Shown here: positions 9,771 through 60,745 of the stretch, piece by piece
Numbering within the stretch: position 1 is the stretch's first letter
How the letters are laid out: each line of letters begins with the position of its first letter
Source of the DNA: Tardiphaga robiniae
Lineage (GTDB): Bacteria; Pseudomonadota; Alphaproteobacteria; Rhizobiales; Xanthobacteraceae
Length of the DNA stretch: 64,000 nucleotides
Direction: 5' to 3'
Assembly (NCBI RefSeq): GCF_001618955.1
Contig: NZ_LVYV01000008.1
Location: 1 to 64,000 of the forward strand
Made by a program: the position numbers and the translations under genes
Notes under the pieces: generated by a model
Database searches by the model: none
The model's input: the letters and a program-made list of their open reading frames with translations, nothing else
Told to the model about the DNA's origin: nothing

Positions 9771-10808
9771 TCAGCTCTGCGAAGTGGTCGGCTTCTGCGC
9801 AACGACGGGCGCAGGCGAGTTTGCCACTTCGGGGGCGAGGATTTCGATCGCTTCTTGAATGGACTCGACGGCGCGTTCTGCGGCACGCGCGCCGAGCGTG
9901 ATCATTTCTTCGGCGCGGTGGAAATCGAACCAGCCGATGCGGCCAACGCGCGGTGCGATCAGGAGATCCGGCGGATCGCCGGCAAGGCGCGCGCGGGTGA
10001 TGCGATCCTGCATGATGTTGAAGGCATCGACCATTACGGTAGAGATGCCCGGCCGTCCGCCGCCGCCGAAGAATTCGCGCTTCATGGTGCGCTCGGCCGA
10101 GAAGAACTTGCTGAAACCGCGCTTGGGCTCTTCGACTTCGATGATGGGCTCGGCCACTTCCGGTCCCGTGCCATGGTCGAAAATCGTGGTCGAGTGGCCA
10201 AACACGTCATTGCTGAGATTAGCTGCGATGACAATCTCCGCACCCAGCGCGCGCGCCGCCGATACCGGCACCGGATTGACCAGCGCGCCGTCGACCAGCC
10301 AGCGATCGCCGACCAGAACCGGAGAGAAGATGCCCGGCAGCGCATAGGACGCGCGCATCGCATCGACCAGGCGACCATGAGTCAGCCAGATTTCATGACC
10401 GGTGCGAACTTCGGTGGCGACGCTGGCGAATTTCAGCGGGAGATCTTCGATCAGTGTATGGCCCAGCGATGCTTCGAGCTGCGCGGCCAGCTTGTTGCCG
10501 CCGATCAGGCCAGAACCGTTCAGGCGGATGTCGAGATAGCTGAGAATATTGCGGGGCTGCAGACTGCGGGCCCATTCCTCGAGCGTATCGAGGTGGCCAG
10601 CGGCGTAGGATCCACCAACTACGGCACCGATCGACGTGCCCACCACGACGTTCGGGACGATGCCATGAGCAAGCAAAGTGCGGAGGATGCCGATATGGGC
10701 GAAACCGCGCGCCGCACCGCCGCCGAGCGCCAGACCGATGATCGGACGTCGAACGCTGCCCAAACCAGGCTTGTCGCGACCGTTCGCGCCATTCTGGCCG
10801 CGCCCCAT
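9771..10808 (-). CDS. Patatin-like phospholipase, RssA type
   Basis: A 345-residue protein with the patatin Ser-Asp dyad: oxyanion loop GGGAARG (29-35), nucleophile Ser59 in GTSIG and Asp173 in VDGA. It is expected to hydrolyse acyl chains from lipids at the inner membrane. The start was placed at ATG 10808 behind GGAG; the open frame extends 21 residues more without a family match. The C-terminal 60 residues after the catalytic domain are acidic and helical, ending in an Ala/Pro-rich tail. Confidence 0.88.
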   Translation of the reverse strand: MGRGQNGANGRDKPGLGSVRRPIIGLALGGGAARGFAHIGILRTLLAHGIVPNVVVGTSIGAVVGGSYAAGHLDTLEEWARSLQPRNILSYLDIRLNGSGLIGGNKLAAQLEASLGHTLIEDLPLKFASVATEVRTGHEIWLTHGRLVDAMRASYALPGIFSPVLVGDRWLVDGALVNPVPVSAARALGAEIVIAANLSNDVFGHSTTIFDHGTGPEVAEPIIEVEEPKRGFSKFFSAERTMKREFFGGGGRPGISTVMVDAFNIMQDRITRARLAGDPPDLLIAPRVGRIGWFDFHRAEEMITLGARAAERAVESIQEAIEILAPEVANSPAPVVAQKPTTSQS

Positions 10809-11047
10809 CAAAATCTCCAGCACACAAAGCCTCCTCGACGCAGCCGATATTAAATGCAGCGGCGCCATCATTCCAGACGGTAGCTAATTCATGATTTATG
10901 TCGCGTTTGCGAGGTTTAGGCACCAAATGTGACTGCAGAGCGACCCGTTACCGCATGGTACACCTGTTCATGGGGCCTCACGCGATTGTGGGTCTGGCCG
11001 CGAGACAGCCGTCAAGGCTTGAATTTGTCACGTTTTCGGTGAAAAGC

Positions 11048-12115
11048 ATGACCATGACTGCATGGGGCCATGATTTGCGAACATCCGGCCGGAGCGGACG
11101 GCTGGCTATGATGCTGGCCCTCGCTCTGCTGCAGGCTGTTGCCTTGCCCCAAACCGCATCCGCGCAGTTCTTTTCGGACCGCCCGGCACCGGTTCCGCCG
11201 GGCTCGATCCCGGATGTCCCATCGGGTCCGGCCATCAGCCTCGCGCCGCCGTCCGGTCCTGCTTCCACCCCCCTGTTGCCGGCGCCGCTGACGCAACCGC
11301 CGGTCGCCAATGTCGCACCGCCCGTGCCATCGCCGGTCCAGGCTCCAACGGGGGCCGCACAGGGCGTGCTGGCGCTGACGGCGCGCTATGGCAAGGATAT
11401 GCCGGTCATCAATAGTGGGCTGGTCTGGCGAGTCTATTCGGATCGACCGGACGAGACGGGGGCCTTCAAGCTGATCCGCGAGGATCGCGGCGCGACGCCC
11501 AACATCGTGCTGCCGCCGGGCAGCTATGTGGTCCATGTGGCGCTGGGCCTTGTGAGCGCCGTTCGTCCGGTGACCATCAAGTCCGAGACCGATCGTGAAG
11601 CGTTCGTGCTCCCTGCGGGCGGATTGCGGATCGAGGGCCGCGTCGGCACCTCGAAGATTCCGCAGAACCAGATATCGTTCTCGATCTACAAGGGCAGCCA
11701 GTTCGAAGGCGGCGAGCGCACGCCGCTACTGCCGAGCGTTCCCGCCGGCGATGTCGTGCTGCTGCAGGAGGGCACCTACTACATCATCTCGAATTACGGC
11801 GACGCCAATTCGGTAGTGCGCTCGGATATTCGCGTGCAGGCGAGCAAGCTCACCGACGTGACCATCACGCATCGTGCGGCTGTCATCACCATGAAGCTGG
11901 TGAGCGACAAGGGCGGCGAGGCCCTGGCCAACACCGCATGGTCGGTGATCACGCCGGCAGGCGACGTCATCAAGGAATCGATCGGCGCATTCCCGCGCGT
12001 CACGCTTGCGGAAGGCGAATATCGCGCTATCGCAAAGAATGAAGGCAAGGTGTTCGAGCGCCCCTTCAACGTCGTGAACGGCGTCGATGGCGAGATCGAA
12101 GTCGTCGCGCGCTAA
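11048..12115 (+). CDS. Exported hypothetical protein with Pro-rich linker
   Basis: A 355-residue protein with a signal peptide (about residues 20-40, ending TASAQ), then a proline-rich linker of about 70 residues (PAPVPPGSIPDVPSGP...), then a beta-rich region of about 250 residues with repeated patterns of the type PPGSYVVHVALG and LAEGEYRAIAKN, like carboxypeptidase-regulatory or transthyretin-type repeats. Probably periplasmic. The start at 11048 is the last ATG pair before the signal; the frame is open 50 residues further upstream. Function unknown. Confidence 0.65.
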   Translation: MTMTAWGHDLRTSGRSGRLAMMLALALLQAVALPQTASAQFFSDRPAPVPPGSIPDVPSGPAISLAPPSGPASTPLLPAPLTQPPVANVAPPVPSPVQAPTGAAQGVLALTARYGKDMPVINSGLVWRVYSDRPDETGAFKLIREDRGATPNIVLPPGSYVVHVALGLVSAVRPVTIKSETDREAFVLPAGGLRIEGRVGTSKIPQNQISFSIYKGSQFEGGERTPLLPSVPAGDVVLLQEGTYYIISNYGDANSVVRSDIRVQASKLTDVTITHRAAVITMKLVSDKGGEALANTAWSVITPAGDVIKESIGAFPRVTLAEGEYRAIAKNEGKVFERPFNVVNGVDGEIEVVAR

Positions 12116-47875: not shown

Positions 47876-48347
47876 AAAACCATCTCCAAGATTCATTGGT
47901 CTGACTTGAAGAGGTTTTCGTTCAACTTTCTAAGTCGCATGAACTCAGGGTTGCACGGCCGTGCGGCCGGCGGTGTACACCCTTCGCCGAGCCCCGCCGT
48001 CCTCATTCGGGAGCGCGGGAGACTAGCCCTTGGTGTTGCTTTGATCGATGAAGCTTCAGATCCGCCTGCTGCGCCCTCCAAAGAACTGAGCGCTATGCCC
48101 CGTGTTGAGCCGGGCAAGATCGAAAATGCCGTTTCGAAAATTGGGTGCGAAACACCAGTGCGGCGATCTTTATCGCTCTAAGAGCGATAGTTATTCTGCA
48201 TCGTGTTCCGGGATATGATGGAATTATGTTTCCTGTTTTTCAGCGTCCGTAGAACTTCCTCCTTTAAATCAGGCTTCAACTGGACCGCTTCTGAAACTGC
48301 CAGTAGTAATCCAGCGTCATCACCTCAAAATCACGTTCGGACATTCG
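47876..48347. other. Non-coding stretch with a 19-base palindrome
   Basis: About 470 bases without a convincing gene. It contains a perfect palindrome TATCGCTCTAAGAGCGATA at 48171-48189 (9-bp arms, one central base), 160 bases ahead of the YeeE/YedE gene at 48348. It is a candidate operator for that gene. No ATTC-N8-GAAT element like the sox ones is seen here. Confidence 0.4.
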
Positions 48348-49397
48348 ATGTTTGCGCTCCCGGTTGTCGTGGGTTTTGCGATTGGCGCCGTTTTCGGCGT
48401 GGTCGGCCTGCTGAGCGGGTTCTGCCTCATGAGCAGCCTGCGCGACTGGTGGGCGCATGACGACGGACGAAAGATCCGGAGCTATGCACTGGCGGTTGCC
48501 GTGGCGATTGTCGGCACTCAATTCATCGCCGGCGCCGGGATCGTCGAGATCGCCAAGTCGCTCTATTTGCAGCCGTCATTCTCTGCTCCGCTGATCTTCG
48601 TCGGAGGGCTGTTGTTCGGCCTCGGCATGGTGCTGTCGAACGGCTGCGCGTCGCGTGCGCTGGTGTTGCTCGGCAAGGGAAATCTGCGCTCGCTGGTCGT
48701 CATCGCGATTATCGGCGTCACGGCGCAGATGACCTTGAAGGGGTTGCTCGCGCCGATGCGTCTGTCGATCCTGCAATGGACTCAGATGACGCCGGGCGCG
48801 AATTCGGTGCCGTCGCTGCTGGGGACACTCGGCCTGCAGGACACGACCGCGCGTATCGCGGCAACGCTGATCGTCGGCGGCGCGCTCCTCGTCTTTGCAT
48901 TATCGCATCGTGAGCTTCGTCGTTCGCCGGGGCAGCTCGTGGCGGGGTTGTTGATGGGCCTGCTGGTGGTCGCGGGCTGGCTGACGACCGGTTGGCTTGG
49001 CGCCGATGAGTTCGATCCGATCCCGGTGGCGTCGCTGACATTCGTGTCGCCGGCTGCCGATACGCTGCAATTCATCATGCTGTCGACCGGCATGACGCTG
49101 AATTTCGGAATTGCGTTGGTGGCGGGTGTGTTCATCGGCAGCCTGCTGACAGCCCTGCTGACCGGACGCTTCGAGTTCGAGGGCTATACGTCGGCACGTC
49201 ATACCGGCCGTTCGATGGCAGGTGCCGCGCTGATGGGGATCGGTGGTGCGATGGCTTATGGCTGTTCGATCGGGCAGGGGCTGACAGGTGTGTCCACGCT
49301 CGCACTGCCATCCTTCGTTGCGGCTGCGGGTATCTTTGTGGGCGCTGCAATAGCGATCCGCGGCCTGGCGCTGCGTCCTGCGTTTGCGGCGCAATAA
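48348..49397 (+). CDS. YeeE/YedE family sulfur transporter
   Basis: A 349-residue inner-membrane protein of the YeeE/YedE (TsuA) family, whose members move thiosulfate or sulfur groups across the membrane. Nine or so helices; the conserved cysteine motifs are SNGCASRALVLLGKGNLRSL (helix 3) and YGCSIGQGLTG (near the C-terminus). It is first of three same-strand genes, with two periplasmic DsrE-like proteins following. It parallels the minus-strand YeeE/YedE gene at 50551. Confidence 0.88.
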   Translation: MFALPVVVGFAIGAVFGVVGLLSGFCLMSSLRDWWAHDDGRKIRSYALAVAVAIVGTQFIAGAGIVEIAKSLYLQPSFSAPLIFVGGLLFGLGMVLSNGCASRALVLLGKGNLRSLVVIAIIGVTAQMTLKGLLAPMRLSILQWTQMTPGANSVPSLLGTLGLQDTTARIAATLIVGGALLVFALSHRELRRSPGQLVAGLLMGLLVVAGWLTTGWLGADEFDPIPVASLTFVSPAADTLQFIMLSTGMTLNFGIALVAGVFIGSLLTALLTGRFEFEGYTSARHTGRSMAGAALMGIGGAMAYGCSIGQGLTGVSTLALPSFVAAAGIFVGAAIAIRGLALRPAFAAQ

Positions 49398-49485
49398 CCC
49401 CTCCCAAGTCCGCTTCGTTAGTTTGATTGCGCTGGCGCAGGGCGATTGCTAATCAATCCCCTGATCGTCAGAGGTTTTGCGCGCG

Positions 49486-49959
49486 ATGAATAGGCGAGGG
49501 CTGTTTTTCTTTTTGTCGGTCCTTGCGCTGATGTCATTTGCAACAGGCCTGGTCACTGCGCAGACACGGCCCGCGAAGCAGGACGCCGCGCCGGACAAGC
49601 CGTTCGCCGAGCATTTCATCGCCTTGCAGCTGTCCGATTCCGATCCGAAGAAAGAACGTCTCGTTCTCAGCGTCGCCAGCAATCTCCTGAAAGCCTATGG
49701 GCCGGACAAGGTGGCCGTCGAGGTGGTCACTTTCGGCCCCGGCATCGATCTGCTGCGCGACACCAACGAGCATCGTGCGCTGGTCGATAGTCTGGTGGTC
49801 CAGGGCGTACGTTTCAGCGTCTGCGGCAACACGCTGGATACCATCGAGCGGGAGACCGGCAAGCGCCCGGCGCTCAATCCGCATGCGGTGGAAGTGCAGG
49901 TCGGCGTCGGCCATTTGCTGGATTTGACAGAGCGCGGTTTCACGATCGTGCGTCCCTGA
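49486..49959 (+). CDS. Exported DsrE-like protein 1
   Basis: A 157-residue protein with a signal peptide (ending VTAQ), then a DsrE/DsrF-type fold: FIALQLSDSDPKKERLVLSVASNLLKAYGPDKVAVEVVTFGPGIDLL, with a single-cysteine motif SVCGNTLDTIE and a C-terminal VEVQVGVGHLLDLTERGF. DsrE-like proteins carry sulfur on a cysteine; usually they are cytoplasmic, here the signal peptide places it in the periplasm. Starts at ATG 49486. It is followed 30 bases later by a paralogue. Confidence 0.75.
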   Translation: MNRRGLFFFLSVLALMSFATGLVTAQTRPAKQDAAPDKPFAEHFIALQLSDSDPKKERLVLSVASNLLKAYGPDKVAVEVVTFGPGIDLLRDTNEHRALVDSLVVQGVRFSVCGNTLDTIERETGKRPALNPHAVEVQVGVGHLLDLTERGFTIVRP

Positions 49960-49989
49960 AATTGCACGTCCCTGAAAAGGAGTTTTGAG

Positions 49990-50442
49990 ATGCGATCATT
50001 GTTGAGATCGATTGCCGGAGCCGTCCTGTTTGCGCTGATCGCGTCGTCCGCCCATGCGGCGGGCGCGAAGGAGCATCGTGTCGCCATTCAGGTCAATCAG
50101 AACGATCCAGCCCTGATGAATCTGGCTTTGAATAACGCGACAAACGTCATGGAGTTTTACAAGGCCAAGGGCGAGGACGTTCAGATCGAGATCGTCACTT
50201 ATGGGCCAGGTCTGCACATGCTGCGCGACGACACGTCGCCGGTGAAGGACCGTATCAAGCAGATTGTCGCTGCGAGCTTCCCGTCCAGTGTCAAATTCAT
50301 CGCTTGCGGAAATACCAAAGAGGGCATGGAGAAGCGTGAGGGCAAGGCGATCAGTGTCGTATCCGAGGCGACGGTGGTGCCATCGGGCGCTGTCAGGCTG
50401 ATTGAGCTGCAGGAAGCCGGCTGGAGCTATCTCAAGCCCTGA
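49990..50442 (+). CDS. Exported DsrE-like protein 2
   Basis: A 150-residue protein with a signal peptide (ending SAHAAG) and a DsrE-like core: HRVAIQVNQNDPALMNLALNNATNVMEFYKAKGEDVQIEIVTYGPGLHML, with the single-cysteine motif IACGNTKEGMEKREG. It is a clear paralogue of the gene before it; both share the CGNT motif and a VTYGPG/VTFGPG loop. ATG 49990 is preceded by AAAAGGAG. A tandem pair of periplasmic sulfur carriers is inferred. Confidence 0.75.
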   Translation: MRSLLRSIAGAVLFALIASSAHAAGAKEHRVAIQVNQNDPALMNLALNNATNVMEFYKAKGEDVQIEIVTYGPGLHMLRDDTSPVKDRIKQIVAASFPSSVKFIACGNTKEGMEKREGKAISVVSEATVVPSGAVRLIELQEAGWSYLKP

Positions 50443-50445
50443 CGC

Positions 50446-50546
50446 TAGAGCCTTATTGGTTCTGATTGAATCAGAACTAGGCTCTAGCTTTTTGTTTTGA
50501 CGCGTTTTCTTGACGCGAACCGGTCTCCACTTCGCTCGAAAACGCT
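50446..50546 (-). repeat. Dispersed intergenic repeat, copy 2 of 3
   Basis: The same element as at 2229, in reverse orientation: it begins AGAGCCTTATTGGTTCTGATT, holds AGCTTTTTGTTTTGACGCG and ends CACTTCGCTCGAAAACGCT. It fills the gap between the DsrE pair and the convergent YeeE/YedE gene. Confidence 0.85.
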
Positions 50547-50550
50547 ATGA

Positions 50551-51660
50551 CTACTTGGACGGCGGCGCTTTCCGCGCCAGCAGCATCCAGTTGCGCTGAA
50601 TGAGGTCGCGCGGGGAGCCGTCGACCAGGATCGCAATGCCGATGCGCGCGCCGAGCACCATGCCGCCAACGGCAATTGGCCAGGATAGCGCCAGCATCGA
50701 TCCCGCGGTGATGCCCTGACCGATGGTGCAGCCGCCAGCCAGAATGCCGCCGATACCCATCAGGCAGGCGCCGATCAGATGACGGCGCATTTCGTGATCG
50801 TCGTCGAAGGCTTCCCAGCGCAGTTCGGCCGCGAACCACGCTGCAGCCCATGCACCGGCAATGACGCCGAACACGCTGCCGACGCCGAAATCGGCGAAGT
50901 TCGCGACATTCAGAACCCCGGCATACAGTGCTTTTCCGATCGTCGATACGAATGTCAGGCTTTGCGGGTGGGGCGGACCCGCGAAATCGTCGTTCAATCC
51001 TACCGTGACGATCCAGCCGGCAATCGTGAGCAGTCCGAGTGCGACACCGGCAGTGAGCAGGCGCGGCGCGCGGCGCAGGCGCCTGTCGCTGAGCGCCAGC
51101 CAACAGAGGCCGCTGCCGACAATGATGGCGAGCGGCACGCGCAGATCGCGGCCGGTCGCTTGCGTCAGCAGCGATGCAAAGTCGGAGCGTATGCCGTCCG
51201 GCATCCGGATCGATAGCTGCTCAAGCACGCCAATGCGAAGATCGGCGAACAGTCCGCGCAAGGTCGCATAGGCCGTCGCACCCAACACGAGGATCACGAT
51301 CAGGCTCCTGAGATCGCCGGTGCCGAGCCGGACCAGCGAGCCGAAGCCGCAGGTGCCGACCATCGCCATGCCGGTGCCGAACATGATGCTGCCGATGATG
51401 ATAGCAACGAGGGGCAATGCGGTGGGAACGTAAGTGGTGTGTTCCGGTGCAAGAAAGCCGGACAGGATCAGCGCCTGGGTGCCGAGCATCGCAACGCCAA
51501 GCGCCAGACCGAAAATCTTGAGGCGACGGTTGTCACTGCCCATCAACGCATCTTCAATCGCGCCAAATGTGCAAAGGCGCGCGCGTCGCACGGCAAATCC
51601 CGCAGCAACGCCGATGGCAAAGCCAGCCAGCGCCGATAACCAGGCAGACATGTTCTGCAT
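50551..51660 (-). CDS. soxT: YeeE/YedE family transporter, SoxT-like
   Basis: A 369-residue inner-membrane protein of the YeeE/YedE family, in the position of SoxT in sox operons (soxS-soxR-soxT). Conserved cysteine motifs: RARLCTFGAIEDALMG near the N-terminus, VGTCGFGSLVRLGTGDLRSL and GGCTIGQGITAGSML near the C-terminus. Its role in sulfur import or signalling for SoxR is proposed for sox systems; here it is the last gene of the minus-strand soxS-soxR-soxT unit. Confidence 0.85.
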   Translation of the reverse strand: MQNMSAWLSALAGFAIGVAAGFAVRRARLCTFGAIEDALMGSDNRRLKIFGLALGVAMLGTQALILSGFLAPEHTTYVPTALPLVAIIIGSIMFGTGMAMVGTCGFGSLVRLGTGDLRSLIVILVLGATAYATLRGLFADLRIGVLEQLSIRMPDGIRSDFASLLTQATGRDLRVPLAIIVGSGLCWLALSDRRLRRAPRLLTAGVALGLLTIAGWIVTVGLNDDFAGPPHPQSLTFVSTIGKALYAGVLNVANFADFGVGSVFGVIAGAWAAAWFAAELRWEAFDDDHEMRRHLIGACLMGIGGILAGGCTIGQGITAGSMLALSWPIAVGGMVLGARIGIAILVDGSPRDLIQRNWMLLARKAPPSK

Positions 51661-51729: not shown

Positions 51730-52107
51730 TTATTTTTTCTTGGTCGGCGCCGGTGTGGCGCAGAAAATATCGTAGATGACCGAGATGACGCTTCGCACGT
51801 CGTCATTGGCCAGGCTGTAATAGATCGTCTTGCCGTCGCGGCGGGTCTCCACCATGCCGTCGTAGCGCAGACGCGCGAGTTGCTGCGATACGGCCGACTG
51901 GCGCAGCGACAGGATGTTTTCCAGTTCGGACACCGACCGCTCCCGCTCCGCCAGCAGACACAACAGCAGCAGGCGGTTTTCGTGCGAGATCGCTTTCAGG
52001 AAATTGCTGGCCTTGCGGGCCTTGCGCATCAACTGATCGAGTTCGGGCGAATATTCCGCGCCGTCCCGCAGTTCGTCTTCGAGTTCGGATGGGATGATAG
52101 AAGCCAT
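51730..52107 (-). CDS. soxR: ArsR-family sulfur-responsive repressor SoxR
   Basis: A 125-residue winged-helix regulator of the ArsR type, in the SoxR/SqrR/BigR branch. The DNA-reading helix is SLRQSAVSQQLARLRYDGMV. Two cysteines only, C50 (LLLLCLLAERERSVSE) and C116 (IFCATP), at the places of the per- and polysulfide-sensing pair in SqrR and BigR. It probably represses the sox operons until sulfane sulfur appears. The operators at 52551 and 56000 (ATTC-N8-GAAT type) fit it. Confidence 0.9.
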   Translation of the reverse strand: MASIIPSELEDELRDGAEYSPELDQLMRKARKASNFLKAISHENRLLLLCLLAERERSVSELENILSLRQSAVSQQLARLRYDGMVETRRDGKTIYYSLANDDVRSVISVIYDIFCATPAPTKKK

Positions 52108-52142: not shown

Positions 52143-52541
52143 TCAGGAACGATTGGCGTTGGGCTGTGAATTGCTCAGTCTGGCAGCATACTTCCCGAGC
52201 AGGCTCCAGAAGGATTCGTCGTTCATATAGCCGGTGATGCGGCCGATCTCGCGGCCGTTGTCGACGATCAGAAAGGTCGGTGTGAAACGCACCGGCGACG
52301 CCAATGCGATGCCGGGCGATTTGTCGCGATCCATATCGATGCGGCGCAGCGGAAGGAGCTTGGCTTCGTCGGTCTTGTCATAGACCGGCGCGATCTCGCG
52401 ATTCCAGCGCGCGCACCAGACGCAGCCATCGCGCTCGAACATCAGTAGTTCGGACGCATCAGCGATGCGCGGCGACAGCGCCGCAGTCATCACCAACAAA
52501 GTCGCGATCAACGAGGTTTTCAGAGGCAATTTCCACGTCAT
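52143..52541 (-). CDS. soxS: SoxS periplasmic thioredoxin-like protein
   Basis: A 132-residue exported thioredoxin-fold protein. Signal peptide to about residue 29, redox motif C40-V-W-C43 (ERDGCVWCARWNREIAP), and the FTPTFLIVDNGREIGRITGY segment. SoxS is known to reduce and re-activate SoxY in Paracoccus. It is divergent from soxV across a 49-base gap that carries an ATTC-N8-GAAT-like element. Followed by soxR after 35 bases. Confidence 0.88.
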   Translation of the reverse strand: MTWKLPLKTSLIATLLVMTAALSPRIADASELLMFERDGCVWCARWNREIAPVYDKTDEAKLLPLRRIDMDRDKSPGIALASPVRFTPTFLIVDNGREIGRITGYMNDESFWSLLGKYAARLSNSQPNANRS

Positions 52542-52550
52542 GTGTTACAC

Positions 52551-52566
52551 ATACACGAATTTGAAT
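52551..52566. promoter_or_regulatory. SoxR/SqrR-type operator, ATAC-N8-GAAT
   Basis: ATACACGAATTTGAAT is one base off the ATTC-N8-GAAT consensus that I recall for the SqrR/SoxR/BigR group. It lies in the AT-rich gap between the divergent soxS (start 52541) and soxV (start 52591). A similar perfect element is at 56000. Confidence 0.55.
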
Positions 52567-52590
52567 ATTTATGCCAGAACCGGATCCGCC

Positions 52591-53334
52591 GTGGTGTCCT
52601 CAATCTCGTTCCTTGGTGCGCTGGGCGCAGGGCTGTTGTCGTTCCTGTCGCCGTGCGTTCTGCCGCTGGTGCCGCCCTATCTCTGCTTTCTGGCAGGCGT
52701 CAGCCTGGACAAACTCGACGATCGCAGTGGTCAGGCCGGCTGGCGCCCGAACGGACGCGTGGTCGCGTTGTCCTTTGCGTTCGTATTGGGGTTTGCGACG
52801 GTCTTCGTCGCGCTCGGTGCATCGGCATCGCTCATCGGCAAGACGATCACGGCGCATTTCGAGACATTGGGCATCATCGCCGGTCTGCTGATCGTCATTC
52901 TCGGACTGCACTTTCTCGGCGTGTTCCGGATCGGGCTGTTGTTTCGTGAAGCGCGCTTTCAGGTGGTCCGCAAGCCGGCCGGATTTCTCGGCGCCTATCT
53001 GGTCGGGCTTGCCTTCGCTTTCGGATGGACGCCCTGCGTCGGTCCGGTGCTGGCTGCCATTCTGATGGTCGCAGGCGCCGAAGGTGCGCCGGCGCAGGGC
53101 GCGCTTTTGCTCGCCGCCTATGCGCTCGGCATCGGCACTCCCTTTATGCTGGCCTCGCTGTTTTCGGGACCTTTCATGCGGCTGATGGCGCGGCTGCGTC
53201 GGCATATGCTGGCTATCGAGAAGGTGATCGGCGCCGGCCTTGTCCTGACCGGTGTTCTGTTTTTGACTGGCGCCATGCCGCGGATTTCAGGTTGGATGCT
53301 GGAGACCTTTCCAGCCTTCGGCACCATCGGATGA
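52591..53334 (+). CDS. soxV: SoxV, CcdA-type thiol-disulfide transporter
   Basis: A 247-residue six-helix inner-membrane protein of the CcdA/DsbD family. Two redox cysteines are in SFLSPCVLPLVPPYLC and FGWTPCVGPVLAAIL. It carries reducing power from cytoplasmic thioredoxin to periplasmic SoxW. The start GTG 52591 gives the usual SFLGALGAGLLSFLSP N-terminus; ATG 52540 would overlap soxS and remove any promoter. Followed by soxW after 20 bases. Confidence 0.88.
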   Translation: MVSSISFLGALGAGLLSFLSPCVLPLVPPYLCFLAGVSLDKLDDRSGQAGWRPNGRVVALSFAFVLGFATVFVALGASASLIGKTITAHFETLGIIAGLLIVILGLHFLGVFRIGLLFREARFQVVRKPAGFLGAYLVGLAFAFGWTPCVGPVLAAILMVAGAEGAPAQGALLLAAYALGIGTPFMLASLFSGPFMRLMARLRRHMLAIEKVIGAGLVLTGVLFLTGAMPRISGWMLETFPAFGTIG

Positions 53335-53354
53335 TGCGGGATCGGGAGGATCGA

Positions 53355-53951
53355 ATGTCCAAGCGAGAGTCCATAACTGGCGTGATCACCAGACGGCATG
53401 CGCTCGCGGCCATCGGCCTCGGCGTGGTCGGGTTACACGCTGCACCGGCGTCGGCAGAGGCGACGCTCGGTGATGACGGGCTCTATCAGATGGACTGGTA
53501 TCTGGAGAGCTTCCTCGATCTCTCCGAGGATCTCGCAGGCGCGACCGCCAAGGGCAAGCGCTTCGCTGTGATGTGGGGGCTCAAGGGCTGTCCGGCGTGC
53601 AAGCGCATGCATGAGAGCTACATGACCGATCCGAAGATCGAGAGCTATATTCGCGACAATTTCGAGATCCTGCATCTCAATCACATCGGCGCGCGCGAGG
53701 TGACAGATTTCGACGGCCGCAAGCGCGGCGAGAAACCTTTCGGCGAATCCTACGGCATTCGCTTTACGCCGACGATCCAGTTCTTTCCGGAGACGACAAC
53801 GGGACTGGCTGCGAAAAGCGGGCAGGCGCGGGAAGTGGCGCGGATGCCGGGGCTGCTGGAGCCCGTGGAATTTCTGGCGATGTTCCGTTACGTGCGACAG
53901 AAGGGTTACGAGACGGCGACGTTTCCGGAGTGGCTGAAGAAGCAGGCTTAG
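53355..53951 (+). CDS. soxW: SoxW thioredoxin-like protein
   Basis: A 198-residue periplasmic thioredoxin-fold protein with the motif C79-P-A-C82 (KGCPACKRM). The N-terminus looks Tat-like (TRRHALAAIGLGVVGLHAAPASA). It should accept electrons from SoxV and keep SoxYZ reduced. ATG 53355 follows GGGAGG, and the frame is open upstream but out of family. Operon with soxV. Confidence 0.88.
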   Translation: MSKRESITGVITRRHALAAIGLGVVGLHAAPASAEATLGDDGLYQMDWYLESFLDLSEDLAGATAKGKRFAVMWGLKGCPACKRMHESYMTDPKIESYIRDNFEILHLNHIGAREVTDFDGRKRGEKPFGESYGIRFTPTIQFFPETTTGLAAKSGQAREVARMPGLLEPVEFLAMFRYVRQKGYETATFPEWLKKQA

Positions 53952-53959
53952 CCGGCAGC

Positions 53960-54460
53960 TCAGAAATCGAGCTTGTCCTGAATAGCCGCAATACCGGCCT
54001 TGGCGCAGGCCTCGTCCGCGTCGCCGCCCGGTGCGCCGGAAACGCCGATAGCGCCCAGCATTGCGCCGCCGCCTTCAATCATGACGCCGCCACCGATGAT
54101 CACGACATTCGGCAGGTTACGCAGCCCGGCCTGCATCATGCCGGGCTGGCTGATCGCATTGAGCTCGGTGGTGCTGTTGCGGAAACTCGCGGAAGTCCAT
54201 GCCTTGCCGGTCGCGGTCGGTGGCGTGTGCGGCCCGGCAAAGCGATCGCGCAGCAGGACTTGCGGTGTACCGAAGCGGTCGACCACGGCAACCGCCACCT
54301 GATAGCCGCGCTTCTGGCACTCCTTTAGCGCCGCACGCGCGGCGTCGAGCGCCAGCTCGAGCCCGAGGGACTTGTAGCTGACGACGGCTTCTTCCGCCCG
54401 TACCGCCGTCGACGAGAGCATCGACAGGACGATGGCAATCCATGCGTTTCGCATCGTCAT
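53960..54460 (-). CDS. GlcG/HbpS family heme-binding-like protein
   Basis: A 166-residue exported protein of the GlcG/HbpS/DUF336 family: signal peptide to about residue 22, then SLGLELALDAARAALKECQKRGYQVAVAVVDRFGTPQVLLR and a Gly-rich end GVMIEGGGAMLGAIGVSGAPGGDADEACAKAG. Some members bind heme or cobalamin-like cofactors. It lies within the sox locus, on the same strand as soxXA, 22 bases after soxX, and is presumably co-transcribed with it. Confidence 0.85.
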   Translation of the reverse strand: MTMRNAWIAIVLSMLSSTAVRAEEAVVSYKSLGLELALDAARAALKECQKRGYQVAVAVVDRFGTPQVLLRDRFAGPHTPPTATGKAWTSASFRNSTTELNAISQPGMMQAGLRNLPNVVIIGGGVMIEGGGAMLGAIGVSGAPGGDADEACAKAGIAAIQDKLDF

Positions 54461-54482: not shown

Positions 54483-55109
54483 TTACTTGTTGATCGGCGA
54501 TTCCGGATCGAACAGGAAAGCCACGATATCCTTGATCTGCTGTTCGCTCAGCACCTTGTTGACGCCGAACCGCGGCATGTTGGAGCAGGCGAACACGGCC
54601 TGGGAATCATAGACCTTGGTGAAGGCGTTCTTGATTTCCTGCGGATCGTATTTACGGTCCTTGCCGTAATTGGTCAGGCTCGGCCCGAGCGTGCCGTAGC
54701 TGACTTCCTTCTGCTCCATCTGGTGACAGGCATAGCAGTTGCCGCCGGCAACGGTGTCGGGCGGATCCGAGAACTGGCCGCCGCGGCCGTTATTGGCAAT
54801 CTTCGCGCCTTCCTTCCAGTTGCCGAGGAATTTGCCATCTCCGGGATACACCACCCGCGCCAGCTCGCGCGCGGTGATCTTGTCGGCCTCTGCGCTGGGC
54901 ACCTCGTTGTGATAGGCATTGCAGGTTTTCAGCGTCTCGTCGGGCTCGATCCGGGCCTGCCACTCCGCCGGCGCCTTGCCGAAGGTGGATTTCATATAGG
55001 CATCGACGAGAGCAGGATCCGGCGCCTTGGCGGCGATCTGCGCCGATGCGGCTGACGTGAATGAGCCTGCTGCGAGAACGAGCGCGGCGAGTGTCAAAAC
55101 GCGTTTCAT
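54483..55109 (-). CDS. soxX: SoxX monoheme cytochrome
   Basis: A 208-residue periplasmic c-type cytochrome, half of the SoxAX complex that joins thiosulfate to the SoxY cysteine. Signal peptide to about 23, heme site C125-Y-A-C-H129, and the axial Met in SNMPRFG. It is longer than the short SoxX of Paracoccus, with an N-terminal extra domain (about residues 25-115) as in other alphaproteobacterial long forms. ATG 55109 follows AAGGAG. It follows soxA by 11 bases. Confidence 0.92.
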   Translation of the reverse strand: MKRVLTLAALVLAAGSFTSAASAQIAAKAPDPALVDAYMKSTFGKAPAEWQARIEPDETLKTCNAYHNEVPSAEADKITARELARVVYPGDGKFLGNWKEGAKIANNGRGGQFSDPPDTVAGGNCYACHQMEQKEVSYGTLGPSLTNYGKDRKYDPQEIKNAFTKVYDSQAVFACSNMPRFGVNKVLSEQQIKDIVAFLFDPESPINK

Positions 55110-55120
55110 CTCGGAGCTCC

Positions 55121-55945
55121 TTATCGCTTGATCGACGGAACGTTGAGTTCCCCGGCCACCGCTTGTTTCTGCAGGAAGGAGGTGAGGGCGGTCAGTACGT
55201 CCGAGCCGTATTCCGGCACGGGCCAGCGTTGCTGACGGAAGCAATCCCACAGACGATGCTGCATGGTGCGCAGCGCGCCCTGCGAGACGCGGTAGGTCGG
55301 CCAGCCGCCCATGGTTTCCTGCGCCGGCTTGCCGGGCTTGGAGAAGTTCGGCAGTCCCTGCAGCCGGATGCGCTTGCCTTCGTCGGCATGGCAGGTGGCG
55401 CAGGAGAAATCGTTGACGCCGCCGCGGCGATAGAACAGCGCTTCGCCGACCGCCGCCATCTCCTGCTCCTTGGGATGGCTCAGCGGAATGTCGATCTTCA
55501 TACCGTTCGACTTGTTGGCGATGTAGGCGACGAGGTCTTCCATGTCGGACGCGCGGCCCGGGCCGGAAAAGCGCCGCGCGATGACGTCCTTGGTATCAAG
55601 TCCCTGAATGTTCTGCATGCACCACAACAGGCGCTGTTCGAGATCCATGACCTTGTCGGCATCGGCGAAGTAGCGCGGCAATTGCGCGAAGGCGCCTTCG
55701 AGCTTCCCCGCGCCGAGACCGAGATTGCAGGTTTCAAGCGAGACGTTCTTGGTGCCGCGGGCTTCGCCCCACAGCGCTTCACCGCGGTCGACAGCGAGAT
55801 AGCCGGGGTTGGACATCGGATCCGAGATCATCTCGCGATAGCGTTCGATCTCTTTTTCGCTGGCATCCTGCGCATGAATGCCGAAGCTCCCCGCGCAGAG
55901 TACCAGAATGGCCGCTGCCGCTGACCGAATGACGGTCTTCCTCAT
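55121..55945 (-). CDS. soxA: SoxA c-type cytochrome, single CxxCH
   Basis: A 274-residue subunit of SoxAX. Signal peptide to about 27. Only one CxxCH is present, C182-A-T-C-H186; the first heme site of diheme SoxA is reduced to C73 (ETCNLG), which may pair with C109 (LWCMQN) in a disulfide. C235 in [11 protein letters not shown] is the catalytic cysteine/persulfide ligand of the active heme. This is the monoheme type known from Starkeya-like bacteria. Divergent from soxY. ATG 55945 chosen. Confidence 0.93.
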
Positions 55946-55999
55946 CTGTCCCCTCCCACATCGCCGTCTGTGCGGCACTTGTGCATTTCAGATCTTTAC

Positions 56000-56111: not shown

Positions 56112-56576
56112 ATGATTTTGAAGTCGGTCGAGAAGACCCGTCGCGAAACGCTGGCCATGGCCGCGATCGCCGGTCTCGCAGCAATCCTTGCTCCCAGACT
56201 ATCGCTAGCCGATGAGCAGGCCGTCGCCGCCGAAATCAAGAAGCTGTACGGCGACAAGAAATTCGAAAGCGGCAAGATCAAGCTCGACGTTCCCGAGATT
56301 GCCGAGAACGGTCTCGTGGTCCCGGTCAATGTCGATATCGAAAGCCCGATGACCGACGCCGACTACGTCAAGTCGGTGCATGTGTTCGCCGAGGGCAATC
56401 CGTTGCCGGCCGTCGTCAGCTACCGGTTCACGCCCGCTTGCGGCAAAGCCTCGGCGTCGACGCGCATGCGCCTTGCGGAAACCCAGAACATCGTTTGCAT
56501 CGCCGAAATGTCCAACGGCAAGCTGCACATGGCCAAGGCCAATGTGAAGGTCACGATCGGCGGCTGCGGCGGCTAG
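56112..56576 (+). CDS. soxY: SoxY, sulfur-carrying subunit
   Basis: A 154-residue periplasmic protein that holds sulfur intermediates on the C-terminal cysteine C152 of the GGCGG tail. The N-terminus is Tat-like (TRRETLAMAAIAG). ATG 56112 follows AGGAGGAAG; an in-frame upstream start at 56049 adds 21 residues that do not look like a signal. First gene of the soxYZBCD unit. Confidence 0.95.
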   Translation: MILKSVEKTRRETLAMAAIAGLAAILAPRLSLADEQAVAAEIKKLYGDKKFESGKIKLDVPEIAENGLVVPVNVDIESPMTDADYVKSVHVFAEGNPLPAVVSYRFTPACGKASASTRMRLAETQNIVCIAEMSNGKLHMAKANVKVTIGGCGG

Positions 56577-56624
56577 TCGCGCGGCTTCGTTCACAGAACA
56601 GATTTATCAGGCGAGGATTTTCCC

Positions 56625-56954
56625 ATGGCAACCAAACCAACCCCGCGCGTTCGCGTTCCGACCCAGGCCAAGCCGGGCGAGCTGATCGAGATCAAGACGC
56701 TGATCTCTCACGAAATGGAATCGGGCCAGCGCAAGGATGCGGCCGGCAAGGTCGTGCCGCGCAAGATCATCAACAAGTTCACCGCAGCCTTCAACGGCAA
56801 GACGGTGTTCGAGGCCGACTGGAATCCTGCCATTTCGGCTAATCCCTATCAGTCGTTTTTCTACAAGGCTGCCGAGTCCGGCGAATTCACCTTCACCTGG
56901 AAGGATGACGACGGCTCCGACTATGTCGCGTCCAACAAGCTGACCGTGGCCTGA
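56625..56954 (+). CDS. soxZ: SoxZ, partner of SoxY
   Basis: A 109-residue protein forming the SoxYZ complex. It starts with basic residues and has the family pattern RVRVPTQAKPGELIEIKTLISHEMESGQRKD and FFYKAAESGEFTFTWKDDDGSDYVASNKL. No signal peptide: it is exported bound to SoxY. 48 bases after soxY. Confidence 0.95.
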   Translation: MATKPTPRVRVPTQAKPGELIEIKTLISHEMESGQRKDAAGKVVPRKIINKFTAAFNGKTVFEADWNPAISANPYQSFFYKAAESGEFTFTWKDDDGSDYVASNKLTVA

Positions 56955-57041
56955 CGGATTGCAGACTTTGAATTGCAGATGTTGATCTGACGTTCTTCTG
57001 AACATTCACCCTTCCATACCGGAAGGGATCATAGGTGGATC

Positions 57042-58739
57042 ATGATATCGAGGCGGGATTTCCTGCGAGCGACGGCGGCTGCGTCTGCGCTGACGATCGG
57101 AAGCGGCCTTGGCCCGCTCGGCCGCGCGGCGGCACAGCAACGCATCACACAGGCCGATATCCTGCGGTTCGATCCGCTGGGCACGGTGACGATCCTCTAT
57201 GTCGCTGACACGCACGCGCAACTGATGCCGCTGCACTTCCGCGAACCGTCGGTGAATCTCGGCGTCGGCGAAGTGAAGGGCATGCCGCCACATCTCACGG
57301 ATGCCGAGTTTCGCAACTACTTCAAGATTGCAGCCGGCTCCGCAGATGCCTTCTCGCTCACCGCCGATGACTTCGTCGCGCTTGCGAAGAACTATGGCCG
57401 CATGGGCGGCATGGACCGCATCGCCACACTGATCGGGGCCGTGCGTGCCGAGCGCGGCGACGACAAGGTGCTGCTGCTGGATGGTGGCGATAGCTGGCAG
57501 GGCAGCTGGACGTCGTTGCAGACCAAGGCGCAGGACATGGTCGACGTGATGTCGGCCCTGAAGCTCGATGCAATGGTCGGGCACTGGGAATTCACCTACG
57601 GCGCCGAGCGCGTCAAGCAGATCGCCGACAGCGCGCCCTTTGCCTTCCTCGCACAGAACATTCGCGACAACGAATGGCAGGAGCCGGTGTTCGAGGCGCG
57701 CAAGATGTTCGAGCGCGGCGGCGCTACCATCGCCGTGATCGGTCAGGCACTGCCGCGCACGGCCGTCGCCAATCCGCGCTGGATGTTCCCGAACTGGGAG
57801 TTCGGTATTCGCGAGGAAGACATCCAGAAGCAGGTGGATGAAGCCCGCGCTGCCGGAGCCTCCATCGTGGTCTTGCTGTCGCATAACGGCTTCGACGTTG
57901 ATCGCAAGCTGGCCGGCCGCGTGAAGGGGCTCGATGTCATCCTGACGGCGCACACCCATGACGCCATGCCCGGCCTGATCAAGGTCGGCAATACGGTGCT
58001 GGTCGCAACCGGTTCGCACGGCAAGTTCGTGTCGCGCCTCGATATCGAGGTGAAGGACAAGAAAGTTGCGGATATCCGCTTCAAGCTGATGCCGGTCTTC
58101 TCCGATGCGATCAAACCCGATCCGGCGATGACCGCGCTGGTGGAGAAGGTGAGGGCGCCGTTCGCTAGGGATCTGGCACGCGAAATCGGCAAGACGGATT
58201 CGCTGCTGTATCGCCGCGGCAATTTCAACGGCACCTTCGACGATCTGATCTGCAACGCCATGATGGCGGAGCGCGATGCGGAGATCGTGCTGTCGCCCGG
58301 CTTCCGCTGGGGCGGCACGCTGATCCCCGGCGATGCGATCACCTGGGAGCAGATCACCAACGCCACCGCGATCACCTATCCGAACTGCTATCGCAACCAG
58401 ATGACCGGCACCCAGATCAAGGAAGTGCTGGAAGACGTCGCCGACAATATCTTCCATCCCGATCCGTATTTCCAGGGTGGTGGCGATATGGTCCGCATGG
58501 GCGGCATGGGCTACGCGATCGATATTTCCAAACCGATGGGATCGCGCATTTCCGCGATGACTCATCTGAAGTCGGGCAAGCCGATCGAGGCCAGCAAGAC
58601 CTACACGGTGTCGGGCTGGGCCAGCATCAACGAGAACACGCAGGGGCCACCGATCTGGGACGTGGTTGCGGCTCATGTGGCGAAGGTGTCGACCGTGAAG
58701 ATCGAACCGAACACCGCGGTCAAGGTGACCGGTACTTAA
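57042..58739 (+). CDS. soxB: SoxB thiosulfohydrolase
   Basis: A 565-residue dimanganese enzyme that hydrolyses the terminal sulfone group from SoxY-S-sulfonate to free sulfate. Tat signal SRRDFLRATAAASALTIG, metallophosphoesterase motifs D57-x-H59 (VADTH), GGD (147-149), H180 in GHWEFTYG (the SoxB-type variant of GNHE), LSHNGF and LTAHTHDA. The C-terminal 5'-nucleotidase-like domain follows. No upstream shift to soxZ promoter; 87 bases apart. Confidence 0.96.
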   Translation: MISRRDFLRATAAASALTIGSGLGPLGRAAAQQRITQADILRFDPLGTVTILYVADTHAQLMPLHFREPSVNLGVGEVKGMPPHLTDAEFRNYFKIAAGSADAFSLTADDFVALAKNYGRMGGMDRIATLIGAVRAERGDDKVLLLDGGDSWQGSWTSLQTKAQDMVDVMSALKLDAMVGHWEFTYGAERVKQIADSAPFAFLAQNIRDNEWQEPVFEARKMFERGGATIAVIGQALPRTAVANPRWMFPNWEFGIREEDIQKQVDEARAAGASIVVLLSHNGFDVDRKLAGRVKGLDVILTAHTHDAMPGLIKVGNTVLVATGSHGKFVSRLDIEVKDKKVADIRFKLMPVFSDAIKPDPAMTALVEKVRAPFARDLAREIGKTDSLLYRRGNFNGTFDDLICNAMMAERDAEIVLSPGFRWGGTLIPGDAITWEQITNATAITYPNCYRNQMTGTQIKEVLEDVADNIFHPDPYFQGGGDMVRMGGMGYAIDISKPMGSRISAMTHLKSGKPIEASKTYTVSGWASINENTQGPPIWDVVAAHVAKVSTVKIEPNTAVKVTGT

Positions 58740-58779
58740 TCGCTGGCTGTCGCATTGCAGAGACACGAAAGCTTGTCGC

Positions 58780-60060
58780 ATGACTGATCGAACCTCAGTG
58801 GAAATGCTCAATCGCCGCCGCTTTCTCGGCGCAGCGGGTCTGACCGGTGCCGGTGCAGCACTTTCGGCGATTCCGGCGCTCGCGGGTGAGACGGCAAAAT
58901 CCGAAGCACTCATCACCGATGTGCAGGACTGGCAGCGCTATCTCGGCGATGGCGTCGACAAGCATCCCTACGGCGTGCCCTCGAAATTCGAGAAGAATGT
59001 GATCCGTCGCGATGTGCCGTGGCTTACCGCGTCGGCGGAGTCTTCGGTCAACTTCACGCCACTGCACGAGCTCGATGGGATCATCACGCCGTCCGGCCTG
59101 TGCTTCGAGCGGCATCATGGCGGTGTCGCCGAGATCAATCCGGCCGATCACCGGCTGATGATCAACGGGCTGGTGGACAAGCCGCTGGTTTTCACCATGG
59201 ACGACATCAAGCGGATGCCGCGTGTCAATAAGGTGTACTTCCTCGAATGCGCGGCCAATTCAGGCATGGAATGGCGCGGTAGCCAGCTCAATGGCTGCCA
59301 GTTCACCCACGGCATGATTCACAACGTAATGTATACCGGCGTGCCTTTGAAAGTGTTGTTGGATGAGGCCGGACTGAAGCCGAATGCCAAATGGCTGATG
59401 CTGGAGGGCGCCGATTCCGCCGGCATGAACCGCTCGCTGCCGATCGAGAAGGCGCTGAACGATGTCATGATCGCTTTCGCCATGAATGGTGAGGCGTTGC
59501 GTCCTGAGCAGGGCTATCCGTTGCGCGTGGTCATTCCCGGCTGGGAAGGCAATCTGTGGGTCAAGTGGCTGCGCCGCATCGAAGCCGGCGACCAGCCGTG
59601 GCAGACCCGCGAGGAGACGTCGAAATACACGGACCTTTTAGCCGACGGAAATTCCCGCAAGCATACATTCGTGATGGACGCAAAGTCGGTGGTGACCAAT
59701 CCATCGCCGCAGGCGCCGCTGAAACACAAGGGACGCAATGTGCTGAGCGGGCTGGCCTGGTCCGGCCGCGGCACCGTGAAGCGCGTCGATGTCTCGATGG
59801 ATGGCGGGCGCAACTGGCAGACCGCGCGCATCGATGGTCCGGTCTTCGACAAGTCCGTGGTGCGCTTCTATGTGGATTTCGACTGGAACGGACAGGAGCT
59901 GATGATCCAGTCCCGGGCCATCGACTCCACCGGCTACGTGCAGCCGTCGAAGGACGATCTGCGCAAGGTGCGCGGCGTCAATTCGATCTACCACAATAAC
60001 GGCATTCAGACCTGGCTGGTGCGTTCGGGCGGGGAGACTGAAAATGTCGAAATCGGCTAA
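58780..60060 (+). CDS. soxC: SoxC sulfane dehydrogenase, molybdenum subunit
   Basis: A 426-residue molybdopterin protein of the sulfite oxidase family that, with SoxD, oxidises the sulfane sulfur left on SoxY. Tat signal [15 protein letters not shown], molybdenum-ligating C157 in FLECAANSG, and the C-terminal dimer domain ([25 protein letters not shown]). The stop overlaps the soxD start by 17 bases. Confidence 0.94.
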
Positions 60061-60745
60061 TGCCCTGATGCTGGTGCTGACGATATGTCTGCTCGGCGGC
60101 ACGAGTGCGCCAAGCGCGGCCCAGCAGATGGCGGGCCGCGACGCAACCAGGCCCTCCGCGAAACTCGGGCTCGGCCGTGCAGCCACGCCGGAAGAAATCA
60201 CCGCATGGGATACCGACGTGCGGCCGGATGGGCGAGGTCTTCCGGTCGGCAAGGGCACCGTGAAGCAGGGCGACGATCTGTTTCAGGAGAAGTGCGCGTC
60301 CTGTCACGGCGAATTCGGACAGGGCGTCGGTCGATGGCCGGTGCTTGCCGGCGGCGCGGGGACATTGAAGGCGGATCGGCCGGACAAGACCGTCGGTTCG
60401 TTCTGGCCCGATCTTTCCACCGTGTTCGACTACATCAAGCGCGCGATGCCCTATGGTAACGCGCAGTCGCTGACCAATGACGAGGTCTATGCGCTGACGG
60501 CCTACATTCTCAGCATGAACGATATCGTCAAGGACGAGACATTCGAACTCAACGAGAAGAACTTCACGTCGATCAAGATGCCGAACGCTGCAGCATTTTT
60601 CGAGGACGACCGCGAGACGTCCGAGAAGCATTTCTGGAACAAGAGCCCCTGCATGAAGGATTGCCGGCCGGCGCCGAAGGTGACCGGGCGGGCCATGGCC
60701 ATCGACGTCACGCCTGACGGCAAGTCCGGCCCCAAGGTCGAGTAG
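60044..60745 (+). CDS. soxD: SoxD cytochrome subunit, single heme site
   Basis: A 233-residue periplasmic c-type cytochrome, electron-accepting partner of SoxC. Signal peptide to about 26, heme site C84-A-S-C-H88 and axial Met in AMPYG. Paracoccus SoxD is a diheme protein of larger size; here no second CxxCH is present (the CMKDC near the C-terminus lacks the His). The start overlaps soxC by 17 bases, so translation is coupled. Confidence 0.9.

Follow-up and report, generated by a model that had tools for sequence, protein, structure and literature searches.

What role do two small DsrE-fold proteins with signal-like N-termini play between a pair of YeeE/YedE sulfur transporters at the edge of a sox cluster? 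The question is raised by a group of four genes (positions 48348–51660) in the stretch of Tardiphaga robiniae DNA analysed here, the first 64,000 nucleotides of contig NZ_LVYV01000008.1 (assembly GCF_001618955.1), hereafter the window. We propose, with a probability of roughly 45%, that the two proteins, DsrE1 and DsrE2, are exported sulfane-sulfur carriers of the Sox system which hand sulfur to a second SoxT-like importer, YeeE1.

The block begins with YeeE1 (48348–49397, + strand; 349 amino acids), a YeeE/YedE transporter, followed on the same strand by DsrE1 (49486–49959; 157 amino acids) and DsrE2 (49990–50442; 150 amino acids), with intergenic gaps of 88 bp between YeeE1 and DsrE1 and 30 bp between the two DsrE genes. 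YeeE2 (50551–51660, − strand; 369 amino acids) is convergent to DsrE2 and lies downstream of soxS and soxR on their shared strand; hence it represents soxT in a soxS-soxR-soxT unit. The DsrE2–YeeE2 interval contains a terminator-like stem-loop with a U run (50444–50488, + strand; −28.4 kcal/mol, z −7.72). None of 200 shuffled sequences was as stable upon folding, and the stem-loop is absent from the output of a consensus scan. A promoter scan gave no match. A preliminary description of this DNA had listed the YeeE-DsrE-DsrE-YeeE set beside sox as one module. All four genes and their order were recovered, but the single unit was not: YeeE2 is convergent, belongs to soxS-soxR-soxT and is located behind the stem-loop, which rules out a four-gene operon.

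Conservation of the block and linkage to sox

We searched a sample of 198 genomes of the family, in which block counts are lower bounds (G and L numbers below denote genomes and loci). YeeE1 and a convergent YeeE2 flanking one or two DsrE genes occur in at least 26 of the 198 genomes and, because of this recurrence, the arrangement is not due to chance. Both DsrE genes are present in 12 blocks (nine of 11 genomes sampled from the window's genus and three of genus g26), DsrE1 alone in five (g26) and DsrE2 alone in nine (g6, g17, g28 and g45). Since each protein occurs alone in the same block, in five and nine of the 26 cases, respectively, the DsrE1–DsrE2 heteromer considered in the preliminary description is rejected as an obligate one. 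Of the named relatives, which are the best 80 of 155 confirmed loci, Tardiphaga robiniae, Tardiphaga P9-11 and Afipia Root123D2 carry the full block; Rhodopseudomonas palustris XCP and R. pentothenatexigens have the version with DsrE2 only.

Strong DsrE1 matches (E < 1e-43) comprise 44 genes in 43 of the 198 family genomes. All 44 are located either in the YeeE block (17 genes) or directly beside soxB (27 genes). Sox genes were directly observed at 40 of these loci, and the other four (G026, G066, G107 and G189) were placed by YeeE1/YeeE2 coordinates only. The gene order in the soxB-type clusters is soxCD-soxXYZAB-DsrE1-DsrE2-HbpS or shorter. The HbpS-like PF03928 protein is frequent directly after DsrE2 in such clusters. 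Thus, the expected conservation beyond the strain and the link to sox are borne out, and the DsrE proteins are strongly associated with Sox itself, more so than with YeeE. Coupling to YeeE, which the preliminary description had also assumed, is not obligatory, because 27 of the 44 DsrE1 genes are beside soxB. The DsrE1-DsrE2 tandem is present in 41 of the 80 named loci, 40 of which show sox or soxR/soxS, while the remaining one, L141, is truncated 36 bp ahead of DsrE1. A sox or soxR/soxS marker is found at 50 of the 80 loci overall; L083 displays a Starkeya-like order, with a DsrE2 of 38% identity after soxD.

Outside the family the linkage recurs in part of the loci. At the order level, 57 genomes had a match, and among 20 loci chosen from them a DsrE2 relative is found within ~1.5 kb of sox/soxT in L170, L177 and L182 and at ~6 kb in L174; L175 and L176 have only a SoxW-like match and the other 14 have no sox match. 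At the class and phylum levels, with matches in 18 of 337 and 29 of 349 genomes, respectively, six of 20 chosen loci (L224, L225, L229, L230, L231 and L235) are inside sox clusters, L222 has SoxC/SoxW-like matches ~8 kb away and 13 are without a sox cluster. L235, which belongs to another class of the same phylum, has the order soxCDXYZAB-DsrE1-HbpS. In other families and orders, DsrE2 relatives are found after soxD or between soxW and soxV (L170, L182, L224 and L229–L231). Plasmid pOB3b1 of Methylosinus trichosporium OB3b (L219, 3792–7439) carries soxZ-soxB-DsrE-DsrE-DUF302, with DsrE proteins of the exported type, the second DsrE-family protein of this species having a different cysteine context. 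The relative on an Azospirillum plasmid lies away from sox, and the soxS-R-T units of Rhodobacter, Paracoccus, Ruegeria and Ciceribacter gave no DsrE1 or DsrE2 match within the 11–13 kb retrieved.

Fold and conserved cysteine of DsrE1 and DsrE2

DsrE2 matches the Pfam family DsrE (PF02635) with 26.9 bits, above the cut-off of 22.7, and DsrE1 scores 14 bits, below it. In a profile search against PDB, MTH1491 (1l1s) was matched at 1.5e-16 with the DsrE2-led and at 6.8e-20 with the DsrE1-led profile, each of which includes some rows of the other protein. AlphaFold2 (AF2) models of the mature proteins have pLDDT values (predicted local distance difference test) of 96.4 for DsrE2 and 91.5 for DsrE1. 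The best Foldseek match of both is again 1l1s (E-values of 4.9e-10 and 4.8e-10; template-modelling scores of 0.78/0.88 and 0.78/0.92 for DsrE2 and DsrE1, respectively). Next in rank are 2pd2 and a designed DsrE-like protein, with weaker matches to subunits of DsrEFH (2hy5; E-values from 6.7e-3 to 6.8e-4, the latter for DsrE1 with 2hy5_A, DsrE); the match to TusBCD (2d1p) has a value of 0.13. We are therefore confident that, as judged from the models, both proteins have the DsrE-type fold suggested for them in the preliminary description; they are probably of the MTH1491 type.

By sequence and fold, the nearest proteins are thus the DsrE/DsrF-like MTH1491 and ST0148 (2pd2), which we take to be members of COG1416/DUF1791. 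MTH1491 has the same cysteine context, CSNT. In these solved chains the matches begin at residue 2–3, leaving no sign of a signal peptide, and the structure titles give the function as unknown. DsrEFH and TusBCD, which have the fold in common with DsrE1 and DsrE2, are cytoplasmic hetero-hexamers with one reactive cysteine. By contrast, DsrE1 and DsrE2 have signal-like N-termini and each can occur without its partner.

As had been noted from the sequence, each protein has a sole cysteine, located in a CGNT motif; this cysteine is retained in every row of alignments A3 (52) and A4 (65). In the phylogenetic tree of 112 rows, DsrE1 and DsrE2 form two sides at 100/100 and each side includes both YeeE-linked and soxB-linked members; the alignment is short and the finer branching unsure. 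The window genome encodes two more DsrE2 paralogues, of 57% and 44% identity, away from sox and with signal-like N-termini (L067, G000:C54:182548-182925; L068, G000:C11:20040-20456). In Bradyrhizobium BTAi1 (L101, ~10001–11838), a sox-free DsrE2 is adjacent to a gene which, by eye, resembles those of TAXI-type solute-binding proteins; in L067, a similar-looking protein is encoded ~2 kb away from the DsrE2 paralogue.

Export

By eye, DsrE1 has a signal peptide at residues ~1–25 and DsrE2 at ~1–23. In a crude hydrophobicity test, in which the most favourable start was chosen and which is thus biased towards positives, all 81 sox-linked DsrE1 rows and all 93 sox-linked DsrE2 rows have a signal-like N-terminus. 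A single mature cysteine is found in 80 of the 81 and 90 of the 93 rows, respectively, and in 66 of 69 other DsrE2 rows. Consistent with the signal peptides first noticed at this locus, DsrE1 and DsrE2 are probably exported to the periplasm. None of the outcomes that would have refuted the preliminary description was obtained. The DsrE2 homologues L067, L069 and L070, which appeared to be signal-less, are an artefact of start-codon choice: a longer L067 reading frame has a hydrophobic N-terminus, and L069 and L070 pass with the most favourable start. A Tat-like (twin-arginine translocation) twin arginine within the first 16 residues is found in 44 of the 81 sox-linked DsrE1 rows versus 23 of the 93 DsrE2 rows, and it is possible that the two proteins differ in export route.

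YeeE1 and YeeE2

Both transporters belong to PF04143 (214.5 bits for YeeE1 and 186.9 for YeeE2; cut-off 27), and an alignment with 6leo indicates that both retain the three TsuA/YeeE cysteines. In a tree of 38 rows, YeeE1 is found in a separate clade of 19 rows (100/98). YeeE2 groups with proteins in the SoxT position from Rhodobacter, Ruegeria, Paracoccus and Ciceribacter in a clade of 15 rows (100/97), although a long-branch flag makes this grouping unsure. The order soxS-ArsR-YeeE, as for YeeE2, is annotated in Rhodobacter and Ruegeria plasmids. YeeE2 is a separate SoxT of the SoxR regulatory unit, in the classical place beside soxR/soxS. The Rhodobacter and Ruegeria units differ from the block in having no DsrE1 or DsrE2 match in 13 kb, and Ruegeria has DUF6691 and a short YeeE further out. 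At L059 and L109, in a soxB-type cluster, a single gene (HbpS) separates YeeE1 from DsrE2; in L064 it is at the opposite end of the cluster, beside soxR.

Persulfide dioxygenase and absence of SoxCD

At 21 of the 27 soxB-DsrE1 loci a following gene encodes a protein with Pfam Lactamase_B and Rhodanese domains, 81–100% identical to the copy in L188, itself one of the 21. We take it, presumably as a member of the ETHE1 family, to be a persulfide dioxygenase-rhodanese. The dioxygenase (E < 1e-80) is found in 36 of the 43 genomes with DsrE1 versus 51 of the other 155 (Fisher test, 2e-9, kinship ignored) and in none of the 10 genomes with DsrE2 only beside YeeE2. The window genome has a dioxygenase-rhodanese (84% identity) and one TusA match, both on other contigs; among the genes of the block itself there are no TusA or DsrFH-like partners.

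Eight family loci have DsrE1 beside soxB together with the dioxygenase and no soxCD in view; in one of them, L202 (G093), soxB is the only sox gene detected in the locus. In five of the eight genomes (G024, G086, G167, G187 and G093) a genome-wide search at 1e-5 gave no SoxD match, and only SoxC relatives of 33–35% identity were present. All five have a YeeE1 relative elsewhere in the genome (61–64%). Their loci (L188, L190, L194, L195 and L202, respectively) combine a truncated Sox with the dioxygenase, soxYZA being present in four of the five. Such soxB-DsrE1-dioxygenase genomes without SoxCD suggest one way in which a truncated Sox could finish the oxidation.

Known systems with comparable components

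Sulfur import into the cytoplasm has been termed poorly understood (PMC11582611). In Hyphomicrobium denitrificans, SoxT1A imports sulfur and SoxT1B signals to SoxR, and DsbA-like and SoxS thioredoxins have been proposed to present the sulfur (PMC11582611). As in the block, two YeeE-like transporters with three conserved cysteines are found there by sox, with SoxR and SoxS. The neighbours of SoxT1A are, however, a DsbA-like thioredoxin and a rhodanese, and the part of that report used here names no exported DsrE (PMC11582611). In the block, a position comparable to that of these proposed sulfur presenters is taken by the DsrE genes. Exported DsrE proteins beside soxB or a SoxT-like channel are concrete candidates for the missing sulfur carrier.

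YeeE is likewise linked to a DsrE-like protein in the YTD cluster (YeeE, TusA, DsrE-like, Chp1 and Chp2) of Desulfobulbales, which differs in including TusA and two further DsrFH-like proteins and in being tied to sulfur disproportionation rather than Sox (PMC13047784). In Starkeya, Orf1 is a DUF1791 protein of the sox cluster, suggested to be a membrane anchor, and its peptides have been detected (PMC3797975). The sox-cluster genes of unknown function in Sulfitobacter include one of the DsrE family (in the soxB-soxC interval), as well as heme-binding, DUF302 and YeeE/YedE genes (PMC11034169). Hence DsrE and YeeE genes in the sox neighbourhood are already published as genes of unknown function. 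Like the block, Starkeya Orf1 and Sulfitobacter orf2 represent a DUF1791/DsrE gene within a sox cluster, in these cases a single one; the portions of both papers used here do not describe them as a tandem pair or as tied to YeeE, and it is by description that we liken them to DsrE2 (PMC3797975, PMC11034169). Among the titles and abstract openings listed in searches of an open-access collection, a scope outside which most subscription journals fall, none describes an exported DsrE pair with a relay role.

Proposed function and alternatives

The role that we consider most likely, in line with the preliminary description, is a relay feeding import. DsrE1 and DsrE2 would each bear sulfane sulfur as a persulfide on the one conserved cysteine, having acquired it in the periplasm from the SoxYZ carrier. 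In this block the recipient would be YeeE1, whose gene directly precedes theirs in the same orientation; the sulfur would cross YeeE1 by way of the three cysteines and reach acceptors in the cytosol, e.g. TusA or the persulfide dioxygenase-rhodanese. Our evidence is genetic and structural: the genes themselves, their fold and signal-like starts, the conserved cysteine and the recurrent linkage to sox, to YeeE1 and, in soxB-type clusters, to the dioxygenase-rhodanese. We infer co-transcription, the loading of a persulfide, its transfer from SoxYZ and on to YeeE1, and the direction in which sulfur flows.

Several observations weigh against such a relay. The window carries SoxC and SoxD, and complete oxidation needs no cytosolic import. 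YeeE1 is in view at only two of the 27 soxB-type loci (L059 and L064) and at none of the other 25; in four soxB-cluster genomes its relatives are at another site, where visual inspection revealed no obvious sulfur-related neighbours. In G016, YeeE1 and a convergent YeeE2 are 87 bp apart with no DsrE match between them, and in G141, L095 and L152 (G141 and L095 being maybe one genome) DsrE2 and YeeE2 have no adjoining YeeE1. No sox marker is found at 30 of the 80 named loci, some of which are short contigs and all of which, except L141, have DsrE2 only; since 68 of the 69 DsrE2 rows away from sox also have a signal-like start, export is not Sox-specific. Of the eight genomes in which soxCD was not in view at the locus, three (G064, G153 and G196) encode SoxC and SoxD elsewhere. 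Finally, a local alignment places the conserved cysteine on position 78 of Escherichia coli TusD, the role of which we presume, but it spans 11 columns at a probability of 0.1% and is not significant. For DsrE, Cys78 is reported (PMC13047784). As a side observation, the YeeE pair without DsrE in G016 (G016:C5:42153-44282) offers a naturally occurring control against which to judge what the DsrE genes do.

The relay could go further and replace SoxCD, with DsrE1, alone or with DsrE2, stripping SoxYZ, YeeE importing the sulfur and the dioxygenase-rhodanese converting it to sulfite. We regard this extension as possible but doubtful; if true, it would be the main route in the Bradyrhizobium-type truncated Sox and would run parallel to SoxCD in the window genome. 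It is somewhat improbable that the DsrE proteins instead act as a periplasmic buffer or repair device, accepting excess sulfane sulfur from SoxYZ and thereby freeing or protecting its cysteine with no hand-over to YeeE. The higher frequency of DsrE1 beside soxB than beside YeeE1 (27 versus 17 of 44), the position of DsrE2 relatives next to soxD or soxW/soxV in other families and orders and the retention of DsrE1 in SoxCD-less genomes are all consistent with a buffer, whereas the presence of YeeE1 next to a DsrE gene in 26 or more family genomes, and its distance of one gene from DsrE2 in L059 and L109, weigh against it.

A purely regulatory role, in which the DsrE proteins would charge SoxT (YeeE1, YeeE2 or both) with sulfur as the cue by which SoxR detects thiosulfate, and not for bulk import, appears unlikely. 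YeeE2 does adjoin soxR, and the authors of the Hyphomicrobium study, in which SoxT1B serves SoxR signalling, expect the same of alphaproteobacterial SoxT accompanied by a complete Sox, as is the case here (PMC11582611). However, the DsrE genes share the orientation of YeeE1 and are parted from YeeE2 by the terminator-like stem-loop, the soxS-R-T units of the four other genera have no DsrE1 or DsrE2 match within the 11–13 kb retrieved, and the linkage to the persulfide dioxygenase points to metabolism. Least probable by far is a structural or anchoring Sox subunit without sulfur chemistry, as proposed in print for Starkeya Orf1 under the term 'membrane anchor' (PMC3797975). The linkage to sox would fit such a subunit, but the hydrophobic N-terminus is shaped as a cleavable signal peptide and the single cysteine is invariant in both alignments.

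Other features of the window

A perfect 9-bp inverted repeat (TATCGCTCT/AGAGCGATA; 48171–48189) is located ~160 bp upstream of YeeE1 and is possibly an operator or a piece of a terminator. As a shared operator the 19-bp palindrome was dropped, because the window does not contain it a second time even with three mismatches allowed; elsewhere, only a three-mismatch copy was found, in L088. The published passages used here give no operator site for SoxR.

Downstream of the block the order is the soxS-soxR-soxT unit, soxV, soxW, the HbpS-like gene, soxX, soxA and soxYZBCD. For SoxW and SoxYZBCD of the window, we take the names from position and homologues. The SoxR-type ArsR repressor (51730–52107, −) matches HTH_5 with 46.8 bits and a BigR-like model with 99.9 bits, under the model cut-off of 155. 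It is followed by a SoxS-like exported thioredoxin (52143–52541, −; Thioredoxin_2, 31.9 bits, and position), the CcdA/DsbD-like SoxV (52465–53334, +; DsbD_TM, 66.5 bits; start codon approximate) and a SoxW-like exported thioredoxin (53328–53951, +; position and reading frame; start approximate). The HbpS-like exported protein (53960–54460, −; PF03928, 112.2 bits) is recurrent in sox clusters. The genes soxX and soxA (54483–55978, −) score above the cut-offs of NCBIfam TIGR04485 (98.5 bits) and TIGR04484 (242.7 bits), respectively, and soxY, soxZ, soxB, soxC and soxD (56112–60745, +), assigned by reading frames and gene order, make the Sox system of the window complete.

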